From Sphingobacteriales bacterium (GTDB lineage Bacteria; Bacteroidota; Bacteroidia; UKL13-3), in NCBI GenBank assembly GCA_021298155.1, contig JAJTEN010000011.1, forward strand, positions 1-57,777: 57,777 nt of DNA. Direction: 5' to 3'. The position numbers and the translations under genes were made by a program. Below the pieces are notes generated by a model, which worked only from the letters and a program-made list of their open reading frames with translations, was not told the DNA's origin and did no database searches. Below, in pieces: positions 3,261 through 8,411 of this stretch; position 1 is the stretch's first letter, and each line of letters opens with the position of its first letter.

Positions 3261-6260
3261 CTAGTATCTGGGGTCCGACTTAGTAGGTAGTTTAGCCATT
3301 TTTTCTATTTCTAATGAGTAAAAATTAAACTCTTGCACTACTTTTCCTAATAACAAGTAGACTCCCCTTCCTGTAAACGGGTATTTAGAGAACGATTGCG
3401 CAAAGTGTGTTGTATCAAAAAAAGTAAAAGCTGCATCGTAAAAAGTTCCAAAAGCCATATAATCACCTTTACTTGTTTTAACGCCTTTTGTAGTTACGTA
3501 AAGTCCTACCATCTTAACAGTTTGCCCTAAATACTTGCTCATATCTGCAGCTAGAATATCTCCCCTATACTCACTTTGTAATAAGTCGAAATCACTTATA
3601 CTTATTGGAAAGCCAAGCAATTCAATTTCATCATAAGCATCTTCAATAGCATGATGTGTAAGAGCAGGCAAGCTAAATGCTGAATGCTTTTTGGTATCAA
3701 GAAACAACTCGATTGTTTCTTGTATGGGAGTTGGATTTGCTTTTGCGTGCTTGCCACAATTACTGTTCATGACTATTTGGCCTGAACCTAAGTTTCGTTC
3801 AAAAGAATATGCCTGCCACATTAAGTGTTTTTTACCCACATTGCAAAACCTAAATGCACCAACTTTAATAAGTATTTTTATTTGCAATACACCTATGGAA
3901 ACCCGCTCTATAAAATCGAATAAGCTTAAAAATGGTCCATTTTGTGTACGCTCATCTAATATAGCTTGAATAGATTTTTGAGTTAAACTTTCTATATGAG
4001 TAAAACCTAAAAACACATCTTGATTACAGATATTAGTTTGCAAATCTGAATTATTTACACATGGTAAATGTACTTTTGCCCCCGTTTTTTGGAGCTCTCT
4101 TATATAAACCCAAGTTTGATAAAATCCACCGAAATTATTGATCACTCCAACCATAAATTCCATCGGATAATATGTTTTAAGAAATAAACTTTGAAAACTC
4201 TCAACAGCAAATGAAGCAGAATGTGCTTTACTAAATGAGTAACCTGCAAAGCTTTCTATTTGTCGCCACACTTCTTTAGTAAGTTCATCTGAATACCCTT
4301 TAGCGCTACAATTATCAAAAAACTTATCTATTATTTTTTGAAACTCTGCTTTAGATCTGAACTTACCACTCATGGCTCGCCTCAACACATCTGCATCGGC
4401 TAAATCTAAATCAGCAAAATGATGACAAACTTTCAGTACATCTTCTTGAAAAACCATTACCCCGAACGTTTCTTCGAGCTGCTCCTTCATAACTGGATGC
4501 AAATAATTAATGGCATCTGGCTTGTGAAACCTTTCGATATACGCGCGCATCATTCCAGATTTAGCTACTCCCGGACGAATAATAGAGCTGGCTGCAACCA
4601 AATGAATATAGGTGTCGCAATGGAGCTTTTTTAAGAGTCCACGCATAGCAGGACTCTCAATATAAAAACAACCAATAGAGTTTGCTTGCTTAAGTTGCTC
4701 TTTTATGAGCGGGTCAGTTTTAAAATTTTGCACATCATGCACATCAACACGAATGCGCTTATTTTTCCATACAAGGTCGGCAGCATCTTTTATATGTCCA
4801 ATTCCACGTTGCGACAAAATGTCAAATTTTTCAAAGCCAATCTCCTCCGCCATATACATATCCCATTGTACCGTGGGTAAGCCAACTGGAGGTAAATCAA
4901 GTGCTGAATATTGCACAATAGGCTCTTCTGAAATAAGTACTCCACCTGCATGTATAGATCTATGATTGGGGAAGTCTTTCAATTGCTCTCCCACTTCTAA
5001 AATGCGAGCAATGAGATGGGCATTCCTATCTGCTTTATCTGGATAATCAGCTAAAATATCAATTTCTCTTTTAGGTAAACCATATACCTTACCTAATTCT
5101 CTATAAATTGAATTTCGCTTAAATGTAGATATAGTACCTAACAAGGCCGTATGGTCTTTGCCATAGCGTTTGAAGATATAATCGTGTACTTGTGGCCTTT
5201 CTTTCCAACTGTAATCTATATCAAAATCTGGAGGAGAGCTACGTTTAGGATTTAAAAATCGTTCAAAATATAGATTCAATTCTATAGGATCTACATCGGT
5301 AATGCGCAAACAATAAGCCACTACACTATTGGCGCCGCTTCCTCTACCTACGTGGTAAAATCCGCGCGACATAGAATATCTTATAATATCCCACGTGATT
5401 AAAAAATAAGCAGAGAACCCTAATCTATCTATAATATCTAACTCTTTTTGAACCCGCTGTTTGGCTACTTCATTATTGCTACCATATCTATATACCAAAC
5501 CATCGTATGCTAAGGTTTGCAACAATTGCTTATCATCATAAGCAGATGACGAATACACTTTTTTATTTTTATGTGTTTTAAAATCAACACACACACTGCA
5601 CCTGTCTATAAAAGCAATGGTATTGCTTATTATATAATGATGATAACGACAGGCATGTATAATGTCTGGCTCGCTCATTAAATATTCATCATACCCCGCT
5701 ACACTTTGCGCATCAAGCCTGCTTAATAGTACATTGGCATCAATGGCTCTTAAATGAGTATGCAAGGTGTAGCTACCTGCATTTTTGTAGGTAACAGGCT
5801 GCTGTAAAATAAGCTTATTTTTAATTTTGCTACTATCTAAACGAGCTAATTTATTGAGCTCAGACAAGCGTACCCCAATAAGCTCATAATCATTTAAAAT
5901 TGGCGGATAATTACTTAAAGGATAAACAATATAGGTATGTTGCAGATACTTAATTTTATCGGCATACGTTGCTCCGTATAAATTGTGATCAGACAGAAGT
6001 TTATTAATTTCTGCTATGCCACTTGCGTTTTTGGCAACAGCTGTAAAAAGTAGGTAATTATTTTCTCGAAACTCAATTCCTGCTAAAGGTTTTATACCAT
6101 GCTGTTCACAGCATTTTACAAACTCAAAAATACCTGTTGAACAGTTTATATCTGTAATTCCCAGCGAACTTAAGCCAAGCATTTGAGCTTGCTTAACCAG
6201 TTCTTGTACCGACATGGTGCCGTAACGTAAACTGTAATAAGTATGTGTATTCCAGATCAA
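3261..6260 (-). CDS. dnaE: DnaE-type DNA polymerase III alpha subunit of a mutagenesis cassette
   Basis: A C-family DNA polymerase of 999 residues, shorter than the replicative DnaE (about 1150-1500), as expected for the accessory, damage-associated form (ImuC/DnaE2-like). An N-terminal PHP domain (residues 1 to about 200) begins NTHTYYSLRYG; the usual TDH metal motif reads TDIN, so the PHP site looks partly degenerate. The polymerase aspartates are in PPDFDIDY (around residue 345), the fingers motif ADADVLRRAMSGK is near 620, and an OB-like domain lies at the C-terminus. The start is TTG at 6258-6260: no ATG or GTG lies upstream in frame, and the next ATG (Met16) would remove the PHP histidine motif. 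It lies 121 bases downstream of dinB on the same strand, and a copy of the candidate cassette operator (6273-6287) sits 12 bases before the start. Assignment as the mutagenic rather than replicative enzyme is an inference from length and neighbours. Confidence 0.88.
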   Translation of the reverse strand: MIWNTHTYYSLRYGTMSVQELVKQAQMLGLSSLGITDINCSTGIFEFVKCCEQHGIKPLAGIEFRENNYLLFTAVAKNASGIAEINKLLSDHNLYGATYADKIKYLQHTYIVYPLSNYPPILNDYELIGVRLSELNKLARLDSSKIKNKLILQQPVTYKNAGSYTLHTHLRAIDANVLLSRLDAQSVAGYDEYLMSEPDIIHACRYHHYIISNTIAFIDRCSVCVDFKTHKNKKVYSSSAYDDKQLLQTLAYDGLVYRYGSNNEVAKQRVQKELDIIDRLGFSAYFLITWDIIRYSMSRGFYHVGRGSGANSVVAYCLRITDVDPIELNLYFERFLNPKRSSPPDFDIDYSWKERPQVHDYIFKRYGKDHTALLGTISTFKRNSIYRELGKVYGLPKREIDILADYPDKADRNAHLIARILEVGEQLKDFPNHRSIHAGGVLISEEPIVQYSALDLPPVGLPTVQWDMYMAEEIGFEKFDILSQRGIGHIKDAADLVWKNKRIRVDVHDVQNFKTDPLIKEQLKQANSIGCFYIESPAMRGLLKKLHCDTYIHLVAASSIIRPGVAKSGMMRAYIERFHKPDAINYLHPVMKEQLEETFGVMVFQEDVLKVCHHFADLDLADADVLRRAMSGKFRSKAEFQKIIDKFFDNCSAKGYSDELTKEVWRQIESFAGYSFSKAHSASFAVESFQSLFLKTYYPMEFMVGVINNFGGFYQTWVYIRELQKTGAKVHLPCVNNSDLQTNICNQDVFLGFTHIESLTQKSIQAILDERTQNGPFLSLFDFIERVSIGVLQIKILIKVGAFRFCNVGKKHLMWQAYSFERNLGSGQIVMNSNCGKHAKANPTPIQETIELFLDTKKHSAFSLPALTHHAIEDAYDEIELLGFPISISDFDLLQSEYRGDILAADMSKYLGQTVKMVGLYVTTKGVKTSKGDYMAFGTFYDAAFTFFDTTHFAQSFSKYPFTGRGVYLLLGKVVQEFNFYSLEIEKMAKLPTKSDPRY

Positions 6261-6272
6261 AGCGTTTATTTT

Positions 6273-6287
6273 GTTAATTAAATTATC
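6273..6287. promoter_or_regulatory. Candidate operator of the mutagenesis cassette (dnaE copy)
   Basis: GTTAATTAAATTATC differs at one position from the perfect dyad GTTAATTAAATTAAC found in front of dinB. It lies 12 bases upstream of the dnaE TTG start. Its repetition at the genes of the cassette suggests it is the binding site of the XRE/S24 regulator at 7698-8411; this is an inference, with no binding evidence. Confidence 0.5.
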
Positions 6288-6381
6288 TTTTATATGTTAA
6301 TAATAATAGCAATTTAAAAACAAGTTGTCAAGAATAAATACCAATAAAACAATAAAGCACTGATTTAAAAGGGTAAAATAT

Positions 6382-7515
6382 TTAACCTCCTTTTCTTATT
6401 GCCTTTTTTCCGTACCAATGTTTTATTTGATCTAAAGCTTGGTATAGTTTTATCATTTCTACGCTGTCTTCAAATAAGTTTATTTGCTGTGCGCCATAGA
6501 CTAGATTACTCACTTTAACGCCAATTAAGCGAATGAGCAATCTCCTGTCATACAACTTAGTAAGCAGCTCTTTTGCTTTAGTAAGAATCACATGGTCGTA
6601 TGAGGTGTAAGCCACACGTACTTGAGCAGTATGTGTTTGAAAATCTGAGTAACGCAACTTAAGCGTTATTGTGGCACATAAGCGATTCTGTTTTCGCATA
6701 TCAAAACATATGTCCTGCACCATTTTAGAGAGCACTTCATGTAAAAATTTAATATCAGTAGTATCTGTTTCAAAGGTTCGTTCTGAACCAATAGACTTTT
6801 GTTCGTGGTATGGTTGTACTGGACGATTATCAATTCCGTTTGCCTTTTCCCATATTTGTTTACCGTTTTCACCCATTACTCTTACTAAGAGTTCGGGTGG
6901 CATATTGGATAAGGTTTCAATGTATACAATCCCCATATCTCTTAGTGTATGATAAGATTTATCTCCAATACCTGGAATTTTTTTAATAGAAAGCGGATTC
7001 AAAAAAGGCCTTACCAGCGGAGCAACAACTTCTTTTTCACCATTGGGCTTAGCCTCCCCTGTTGCAATTTTAGAAACTGTTTTATTAACAGATAAGCCAA
7101 ATGAAATAGGTAGGCCCGTTTCTTTTATAATACGCATGCGCAACTCGTGCATCCATTTTTTTGTACCAAAGAACCGATCCATACCCGTCACATCTAAATA
7201 ATGCTCATCTATAGAAGCCTTCTCTACCAAAGGTGCTTCGGATGTTATAAGCTCTGTTACCAAATGAGAAAGTCTGCTGTATTTATCCATATCACCCCTG
7301 ATCCAAATGGCTTGTGGGCAAATTCTTCGAGCTAATTTACCGGGCATAGCAGCATGAACACCAAACTTTCTCGCCTCATAGCTACAACTAGCCACCACAC
7401 CCCTGTCTGAAAAACCACCAATAATAACTGGTTTTCCTAATAAAGATGAATTCTCTAAACGCTCTGCCGATACAAAAAAAGTATCTAAATCCATGTGTGC
7501 TATTATCTTTTCCAT
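6382..7515 (-). CDS. dinB: DNA polymerase IV (DinB), Y-family translesion polymerase
   Basis: An error-prone Y-family polymerase that extends primers across damaged bases. The catalytic acidic residues are present: Asp9 and Asp11 in MDLDTFF at the N-terminus, and Asp103-Glu104 in KASIDEHYLDVTG. The helix-hairpin-helix region (KKIPGIGDKSYHTLRDMGI) and the little-finger domain follow. The length of 377 residues is slightly above the E. coli enzyme (351). There is no obvious C-terminal beta-clamp motif of the simple QLxLF type, although QQINLFED near residue 350 resembles one. It is divergent from the S24 regulator and lies upstream of the dnaE-like gene; two candidate operator copies (7518-7532, 7541-7555) stand immediately before its start, which points to damage-inducible control. 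Confidence 0.93.
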   Translation of the reverse strand: MEKIIAHMDLDTFFVSAERLENSSLLGKPVIIGGFSDRGVVASCSYEARKFGVHAAMPGKLARRICPQAIWIRGDMDKYSRLSHLVTELITSEAPLVEKASIDEHYLDVTGMDRFFGTKKWMHELRMRIIKETGLPISFGLSVNKTVSKIATGEAKPNGEKEVVAPLVRPFLNPLSIKKIPGIGDKSYHTLRDMGIVYIETLSNMPPELLVRVMGENGKQIWEKANGIDNRPVQPYHEQKSIGSERTFETDTTDIKFLHEVLSKMVQDICFDMRKQNRLCATITLKLRYSDFQTHTAQVRVAYTSYDHVILTKAKELLTKLYDRRLLIRLIGVKVSNLVYGAQQINLFEDSVEMIKLYQALDQIKHWYGKKAIRKGG

Positions 7516-7517
7516 GA

Positions 7518-7532
7518 GTTAATTAAATTAAC
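7518..7532. promoter_or_regulatory. Candidate operator, perfect dyad (dinB-proximal)
   Basis: GTTAATT-A-AATTAAC is a perfect 7+1+7 inverted repeat two bases upstream of the dinB start codon. Near-identical copies are at 6273-6287, 7541-7555 and 7604-7618. A site here would block dinB transcription or early elongation when occupied. Confidence 0.55.
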
Positions 7533-7540
7533 ATATAAAA

Positions 7541-7555
7541 GTTAGTTAAAATAAC
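7541..7555. promoter_or_regulatory. Candidate operator, second dinB copy
   Basis: GTTAGTTAAAATAAC matches 13 of 15 positions of the perfect dyad at 7518-7532 and starts 23 bases from it, about two helical turns, so both copies would lie on nearly the same face of the DNA. It abuts a possible minus-strand -7 element (TAACTTTT). Confidence 0.45.
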
Positions 7556-7603
7556 CTATTCAATATATACAAGCAAATATTTCATATAAAATCTTATTAT
7601 TAA

Positions 7604-7618
7604 GATAATTTTATTAAC
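7604..7618. promoter_or_regulatory. Candidate operator, regulator-proximal copy
   Basis: GATAATTTTATTAAC is, on the reverse strand, GTTAATAAAATTATC, matching 13 of 15 positions of the dyad at 7518-7532. It lies just upstream of the -35-like TTGACA of the regulator promoter, in a position suited to autoregulation. Confidence 0.45.
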
Positions 7619-7624
7619 TAATAC

Positions 7625-7653
7625 TTGACATTTAAAATATCATTTACTATATT
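7625..7653 (+). promoter_or_regulatory. Predicted promoter of the S24 regulator
   Basis: TTGACA (7625-7630) is followed after 17 bases by TATATT (7648-7653), 44 bases before the ATG of the regulator. The spacing is unusually close to the general sigma-70 form for this phylum. The flanking operator copy at 7604-7618 supports negative autoregulation. Confidence 0.5.
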
Positions 7654-7697
7654 GCGTGAATAATTAGATTTAAAATAATTAGTTAAACAAGCTTATT

Positions 7698-8411
7698 ATG
7701 TATTTATCCAGTAACATCAAATTTCTTCGTAAACGAAAGAATTTAAGTCAGGAAGAAATGGCTATTGCCATAGACTCTAAACGCTCTGTTTTGAATAGCT
7801 ATGAAAACAATATAGCTTCTCCTCCACTAGAAATGGCTATGCGTATTTCAGACTATTTTCGAATAAGCTTAGATACATTATTACGCATAGATTTAGTTAG
7901 ATTACCCGAATATAAAGTGGGTGAACTAGAGCGTGGACTAGAAGATTATATGAAAGGTAAATACCTTCGTGTAATTGCCACCACCACCAATCACGAAAAC
8001 ATAGATAATATCGAGATGGTTTCTGAAAAAGCGCGTGCAGGCTACACTTCTGGATATAGCGACATTCAATTTATTTCAGAATTACCACAGTTTAGTTTAC
8101 CTTTTTTAGATAGACGCAAAAAGTATCGTAGTTTTCAAATTAGTGGAGATTCTATGTTACCTATTCAAGACAAAACCTATGTTACCTGCGAATATGTTGA
8201 AGATTGGACAAGCTTAAAAGATGGCTTGTGTTATGTTATTTTAACTAAAGAAGATGGTATTGTATTTAAACGCGTCTATAATGATATTGCTAAAAACAAA
8301 ACCTTAGCTTTGGTATCAAATAACCCTATATACAAGCCTTATGAAGTAAAAATTGAAGATGTGCTAGAAATTTGGAAATACGTGATGGATCACAGCAAAA
8401 CATTGGATTGA
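7698..8411 (+). CDS. XRE-type HTH repressor with S24 (LexA-like) autocleavage domain
   Basis: A 237-residue regulator built like phage CI or LexA. Residues 1-65 form an XRE helix-turn-helix (LSQEEMAIAIDSKRSVLNSYE). Residues 105-230 form a peptidase S24 domain with catalytic Ser152 (SGDSMLP) and Lys191 (GIVFKRV); the likely self-cleavage bond is Ala114-Gly115 in EKARAGYTSGY. All three elements needed for RecA-stimulated self-cleavage are therefore present. It is divergent from dinB, and the shared intergenic region holds three copies of a dyad also found before the dnaE-like gene. The inferred role is repressor of the translesion-polymerase cassette, derepressed by DNA damage. Whether it also serves as the genome's general LexA cannot be told from this window. 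Confidence 0.88.
   Translation: MYLSSNIKFLRKRKNLSQEEMAIAIDSKRSVLNSYENNIASPPLEMAMRISDYFRISLDTLLRIDLVRLPEYKVGELERGLEDYMKGKYLRVIATTTNHENIDNIEMVSEKARAGYTSGYSDIQFISELPQFSLPFLDRRKKYRSFQISGDSMLPIQDKTYVTCEYVEDWTSLKDGLCYVILTKEDGIVFKRVYNDIAKNKTLALVSNNPIYKPYEVKIEDVLEIWKYVMDHSKTLD

Follow-up and report, generated by a model that had tools for sequence, protein, structure and literature searches.

The closest described relatives of the system reported here belong to a non-canonical LexA family of the Bacteroidetes (Sanchez-Osuna 2021, PMC8565304). According to the main-text parts of that paper, the family uses the motifs CTAA-N5-TTAG and GGA-N5-TCC, and both binding (by EMSA) and induction by mitomycin have been shown for family members. 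Several promoters carry two or more sites, and error-prone polymerases show the largest induction, which fits the paired sites at polymerase genes described below. In Elizabethkingia anophelis both the regulator gene and the polymerase gene opposite it are induced by mitomycin. Diverged palindromes are counted within the family and, for this reason, we have not treated a CTAA or GGA operator as a defining criterion. The regulator considered here is best placed as a diverged member of this family, and the principle of the system is thus already known. Neither the motif GTTAA-N5-TTAAC nor pairs of sites at 23 bp were found described in the main-text parts of PMC8565304, where the string 'cooperativ' is absent and 'spacing' is used only for the dyad spacer. 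A search of the literature on pairing or cooperativity and on the motif string found no further paper.

The window (that is, the whole stretch of DNA analysed, 57,777 nucleotides) is contig C14 of a 2.5-Mb genome in 71 contigs. The features used in this analysis are the following:

3261..6260, minus strand: dnaE2-like gene; 999 amino acids, TTG start; Pfam domains PHP, DNA_pol3_alpha, finger and HHH_6
6273..6287, no strand: candidate operator, inner site of the dnaE pair, GTTAATTAAATTATC, 1 mismatch
6296..6310, no strand: candidate operator, outer site of the dnaE pair, GTTAATAATAATAGC, 2 mismatches
6303..6331, minus strand: predicted dnaE promoter, TTGACA-17-TATTAT; consensus match only
6382..7515, minus strand: dinB; 377 amino acids; Pfam domains IMS and IMS_C
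7518..7532, no strand: candidate operator, inner site of the dinB pair, perfect palindrome, GTTAATTAAATTAAC
7541..7555, no strand: candidate operator, outer site of the dinB pair, GTTAGTTAAAATAAC
7604..7618, no strand: candidate operator for the regulator gene, GATAATTTTATTAAC, stopping 6 nt short of the -35
7625..7653, plus strand: predicted regulator promoter, TTGACA-17-TATATT; place kept in relatives
7698..8411, plus strand: regulator gene; 237 amino acids, CI-type HTH plus S24 peptidase, non-canonical LexA family

The window contains five copies of GTTAATnnnATTAAC, with the general form GTTAA-N5-TTAAC. Four of these form tandem pairs, at 6273/6296 (dnaE2-like gene) and 7518/7541 (dinB), each with its members exactly 23 bp apart, while the copy at 7604 (regulator gene) is single. 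A sequence-only reading of this DNA had described the perfect 7-1-7 inverted repeat at 7518-7532, which is borne out. It had also listed four copies of the motif, all of which lie where it placed them, but it missed the fifth (6296-6310) and the 23-bp pairing. Its proposal that the copies occupy the control regions of two polymerase genes and of the regulator gene is supported, and the copies are conserved at orthologous promoters (see below). The predicted -10 of dnaE lies inside the 6296-6310 copy. For dinB, the one promoter match found is weak (7590-7562, 9/12 bases).

The dnaE2-like gene encodes the second, shorter DnaE of the genome; the other copy is found in a 1195-aa frame on contig C12. 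Since the protein scores below the cut-off of the NCBIfam 'error-prone DNA polymerase' model (476.6 of 939 bits), the name 'dnaE2-like' is to be taken as a reading. dinB encodes the sole Y-family polymerase found in the genome (one match in a PF00817 search).

The regulator carries an N-terminal HTH_3 domain (PF01381, E 8.2e-12) and a C-terminal S24 domain (PF00717, E 4.4e-09), both above the gathering score. The residues named in the sequence-only reading as those of LexA-type self-cleavage (Ala114-Gly115, Ser152 and Lys191) are correctly identified and are invariant in a 20-protein alignment. No match to LexA_DNA_bind (PF01726) was found in the regulator or elsewhere in its genome, and the genome yielded no canonical LexA. 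The same genome yielded no paralogue of the regulator. Among the 19 genomes of the genus there is one LexA_DNA_bind match (L137, G015:C37:1292-1453; 42.8 bits), which may represent contamination or a real second system.

An AlphaFold2 model of the regulator has a mean pLDDT of 81 and a pTM of 0.59. Compared over its whole length, the model first matches a lambda-186 hybrid repressor and LexA, with poor superposition (TM 0.28-0.39). When the domains are taken apart, the C-terminal domain resembles LexA and lambda CI and the N-terminal domain, which is all-alpha, resembles P22 c2 and SinR. The protein shares 36-40% identity with four proteins whose genes are preceded by CTAA sites. In a tree of 21 proteins, with no GGA-cluster reference included, the genus falls outside the CTAA clade, and the branch that joins the two is weakly supported (0.498). 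Relatives at 85-99% identity come from metagenome-assembled Bacteroidetes/Bacteroidota genomes. The regulator ends directly after S24 and does not carry the C-terminal extension (approximately 25-30 residues) of most of the homologues compared (L033-L043, L107, L110 and L111); L036 is also without it. The N5 spacer of the operator is fixed although this extension is absent from the regulator. In the main-text parts of PMC8565304 it is speculated that the spacer is set by an additional helix at the C-terminus, which may or may not correspond to the extension compared here.

Conservation was assessed in 19 genomes of the genus, including the source genome. Promoters were scored by one rule (14 for dinB, 9 + 5 for dnaE, 17 for the regulator and 18 for recA); the genomes are related and the counts do not represent independent events. 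The motif put forward in the sequence-only reading is kept in the orthologous cassettes across the genus: a site with at most one mismatch is present at 14/14 dinB and 17/17 regulator promoters. All 18 recA promoters have a site with at most two mismatches (15 with at most one), and in an alignment of 16 recA upstream regions the site is one of the few conserved blocks. The 170-nt stretch scored upstream of dinB extends as far as the site of the regulator gene in G000, G004 and G006, and in each of these the dinB-proximal pair was seen separately.

The dnaE gene carries sites in nine of 14 cases. The five site-less copies are located 5-103 nt behind dinB; three copies located 120-132 nt behind it (G000, G001 and G006) each have a pair; five that are separated from dinB or carried on a different contig (G004, G008, G010, G013 and G017) all have sites, as does that of G002, which is at a contig start. 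This division into dnaE genes with their own promoter and those behind dinB was made after the sites had been seen. In two genomes (G003 and G013), other ORFs separate dinB and the regulator gene, and each gene keeps its own site or pair. We regard this tracking of the genes by their sites as the strongest evidence for function. The sites, their conservation, their spacing and their association with these genes can all be read from the nucleotide sequence itself.

Outside the genus the picture is different. In the closest other genus in the comparison, represented by G027 (60% identity), the genes have the same dnaE-dinB-regulator order but the motif is absent in front of the regulator gene, a further case of motif drift. 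The short intergenic region upstream of the regulator gene contains instead an inverted repeat, TTTGACA-N7-TGTCAAA (L032), which suggests that the operator has been switched. TTAA-N5-TTAA is also absent from the upstream regions (up to 300 bp) of 12 regulators from other genera with 44-60% identity.

Exact copies of the palindrome GTTAATNNNATTAAC number two in the 2.5-Mb genome, one at 7518 (dinB/regulator) and one at C5:15661. The latter precedes the recA start by 148 nt and lies in the interval that separates recA from an ssb-like gene (identified by eye). The genome-wide scan proposed in the sequence-only reading thus gave a divided answer: at loose settings the motif occurs at random frequency, while the exact palindrome is found only at dinB/regulator and recA. 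We also used a profile (R1) derived from 31 sites of other genomes, which excludes recA sites, the source genome (G000) and the near-identical G006. In the window, the five sites are the five best distinct places, the fifth (6296) tying in bits with 51007. In the genome, the three best places are dinB, recA and dnaE (150 of 4079 first-look candidates were scored); the recA site had not figured in the earlier reading.

The symmetric pattern has 17 one-mismatch places in the source genome. Two are the window sites 6273 and 7604, 14 are inside ORFs and one lies across an ORF junction (the ORFs here being mechanical ones), and we do not claim further regulon members among these 15 places outside the window. 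A one-mismatch site across a two-ORF junction (L013, G000:C27:18684) is found in a cluster that, by eye, resembles an SMC/Wadjet-like operon. Two two-mismatch candidates (C18:29800 and C20:4403) were rejected and lie inside ORFs. Exact palindromes number 28 in the 19 genus genomes, compared with 32 for the reversed control, and 17 of the 28 are at the four genes. Of the other 11, eight were inspected (seven inside ORFs, one between genes); the remaining three are in G018, G004 and G016. With loose counts no higher than chance, and exact palindromes across the genus no more numerous than their reversed control, these searches cannot pick out weaker members of the regulon. The regulon looks small: dinB, the dnaE2-like gene, the regulator gene and recA. 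In a single genome (L060, G015:C60:104640), an exact palindrome is flanked by a gene that, by eye, is recQ-like and by a divergent gene; according to the main-text parts of PMC8565304, recQ is among the genes predicted to belong to the SOS response of the non-canonical LexA family.

The 23-bp pairing differs between promoters. A partner at this distance with at most two mismatches is found at 10/14 dinB promoters, 8/9 dnaE promoters with sites, 1/17 regulator promoters (G018) and 0/18 recA promoters. With at most three mismatches, the corresponding values are 10/14, 9/9, 7/17 and 0/18, so that the regulator gene is intermediate. Not every polymerase promoter is paired, and pairs are not confined to the polymerase genes: four of the 14 dinB promoters (G005, G008, G010 and G017) have no second site at two mismatches or fewer, the regulator promoter of G018 is paired, and six more regulator promoters have a three-mismatch word at 23 bp. 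Around sites with at most one mismatch, a second site was found at offset 23 in 19/59 cells compared with 7/4144 at the other offsets between 15 and 100; the genomes behind these cells are related, and a pair in which both sites are strong enters the count twice. If pairs are defined as one site with at most one and another with at most two mismatches, 15-100 bp apart, the genus contains 20, of which 15 are at exactly 23 bp; the other five (63, 86 and 95 bp) join dinB-side to regulator-side sites.

A 38-bp pair model (R2) was built from nine genus pairs and searched genus-wide, with 150 candidates scored per genome. At E below 1e-4 it identified 14 distinct places, all of them dinB, dnaE or the G018 regulator, including five outside the training set. 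The dinB pair of the source genome was found at E 0.0017, while its dnaE pair did not appear among the places reported up to an E of 1.

In 247 Bacteroidota genomes, exact CTAA-N5-TTAG pairs are not enriched (40 in 31 genomes compared with 49 for the reversed control). Twelve of the 40 are 22-24 bp apart, with 29 distances possible (binomial 0.0005; control spacings not compared). Seven of the 12 were viewed with their neighbourhood, and several of the 40 are inside genes. Three of the 12 lie before regulator genes of the same kind (L107, L110 and L111). In another family (L115, G242), CTAA-N5-TTAG sites at 1501 and 1534 are located between a dinB-like gene and a divergent regulator gene; these are 33 bp apart, approximately one helical turn above 23.

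From these observations, and from published work on the family, we infer binding, cleavage, repression, induction and cooperativity. The palindrome is very probably the binding site of the S24 regulator. A regulator dimer on each palindrome would repress dinB, the dnaE2-like polymerase gene, recA and the regulator's own gene. On DNA damage, RecA filaments would stimulate the regulator to cut itself at Ala114-Gly115 by means of Ser152/Lys191, and repression of the genes would be lifted. The polymerase promoters would be served by two operators, 23 bp from centre to centre and near the transcription start, recA by one and the regulator gene by one good site. Adjacent dimers would probably bind cooperatively, so that the mutagenic polymerases would be held down most tightly. 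Repression and RecA-stimulated release are suggested by the published work on the family and the conserved residues, and the geometry suggests that two neighbouring dimers would repress the polymerases more strongly. Taken as a whole, a diverged non-canonical LexA acting on GTTAA-N5-TTAAC, with a small SOS regulon and paired sites at the polymerases, is in our judgement the best explanation and one in which we have high confidence.

Several other explanations must be weighed. The simplest is that these are A/T-rich words repeated by chance, and at loose settings the counts are just what this would predict. With up to three mismatches the window contains 12 matches compared with 12.8 expected from shuffles, and with up to two mismatches of the symmetric consensus 11 compared with 9.4 (66/200 shuffles reach that number); genome-wide, 343 two-mismatch matches compare with 581 for the reversed control pattern, and the exact palindromes across the genus do not exceed their control either. 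Chance does not, however, explain the arrangement. Five sites with at most two mismatches lie within 1,345 bp, the span having been set by the data themselves, and none of 200 dinucleotide shuffles reaches five (the maximum is four). The two 23-bp tandem pairs in the window have no counterpart in any of the 200 shuffles, and the places of the sites are conserved across the genus. It is therefore clustering, 23-bp tandem pairs and conservation at orthologous promoters that are above chance, while loose counts do not separate the motif from it, and we consider an origin by chance alone scarcely credible. Another regulator, or the transcription machinery itself, might instead read the palindrome, which is A/T-rich like the promoters of this organism, with the S24 regulator simply adjoining. 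This we find very improbable: the genes with sites are the core SOS set (dinB, dnaE2-like, recA and the regulator), the motif is one base per arm from the CTAA-N5-TTAG of the family, and the genome has neither a second member of the regulator family nor a LexA_DNA_bind match.

The role of the individual sites is less certain. The regulator's own site is upstream of the -35 and not over the core promoter. At 14/17 regulator promoters of the genus it ends exactly 6 nt before a TTGnnn -35, which is followed by a 17-nt spacer and a TAnnTT -10. This distance could reflect weak autorepression or contact with RNA polymerase. The site might thus be a positive or weakly modulating one, with the repressor touching RNA polymerase at the -35 as phage CI does, and such a strict distance would not be needed for simple occlusion. 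Nevertheless, the centre of the site is at approximately -50 relative to the expected start, whereas phage CI binds closer to the start at its own promoter. In four of the 17 promoters a degenerate partner, 23 bp further, lies over the core promoter and would fit repression. Published family members, moreover, are damage-induced at their own gene, that is, autorepressed (PMC8565304, main-text parts). A positive or modulating role is accordingly an unlikely one for this site.

The two sites of a pair may also be bound independently, the 23-bp spacing being only the fit of two dimers around the start site. Cooperativity is not readable from sequence, and one good site suffices at the four unpaired dinB promoters. 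The exact 23-bp distance of 15 of the 20 genus pairs argues against independent binding, as do the 12 of 40 CTAA pairs at 22-24 bp, though CTAA pairs as a whole are outnumbered by those of the reversed control (40 compared with 49). We take independent binding to be a real possibility, if not the outcome we would expect. The adjacent operators of phage CI/c2 repressors are approximately 23-24 bp apart. A wider proposal is that the SOS repressors of this phylum have kept the operator logic of a phage ancestor: cooperative dimer pairs at approximately 23 bp at the polymerases, a single site at recA and, at the regulator gene, one good site whose partner is weak if present at all. Pairing, beyond site strength alone, would then set the order and threshold of the SOS response. 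This proposal is weakened by the total number of CTAA pairs, which does not exceed the control, and by the degenerate partner at some regulator promoters; we advance it tentatively and incline somewhat against it.

Compared with known systems, the diverged LexA proposed here is most similar to the CTAA-N5-TTAG group (PMC8565304, main-text parts). Both have HTH_3 and S24 domains, the Ala-Gly bond, the Ser-Lys pair and an N5 palindrome in the regulator's own promoter, together with a regulon that includes dinB, recA and dnaE2. A dinB-like gene divergent from the regulator with CTAA sites between them also occurs in this group (the L115 locus mentioned above). The window system differs in its operator, GTTAA-N5-TTAAC, which is one base per arm from CTAA-N5-TTAG, in its protein (36-40% identical, no C-terminal extension) and in a regulon that seems small. 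The Elizabethkingia anophelis regulator, as presented in the main-text parts of the same paper, shares a diverged N5 palindrome (TTAC-AAATT-GTAA) and a position opposite an error-prone polymerase gene, but its arm sequence is different and some species of that family have up to five homologues compared with the single copy found here. With canonical LexA, the system shares the S24 self-cleavage residues and the SOS gene set, but the regulator is without LexA_DNA_bind and the operator differs. With phage CI/c2 repressors, it shares an all-alpha N-terminal and an S24 C-terminal domain in the model and adjacent operators, but it is chromosomal and its sites are at DNA repair genes. The comparison places the regulator of a genus met only as metagenome-assembled genomes in the non-canonical LexA family and provides it with a candidate operator. 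It also offers a simple, testable rule, with paired sites at the polymerases and one site at recA, by which a repressor of phage origin could grade the SOS response. The system is very probably a variant of an SOS switch already known in the phylum, the new elements being the motif GTTAA-N5-TTAAC and the 23-bp pairs.
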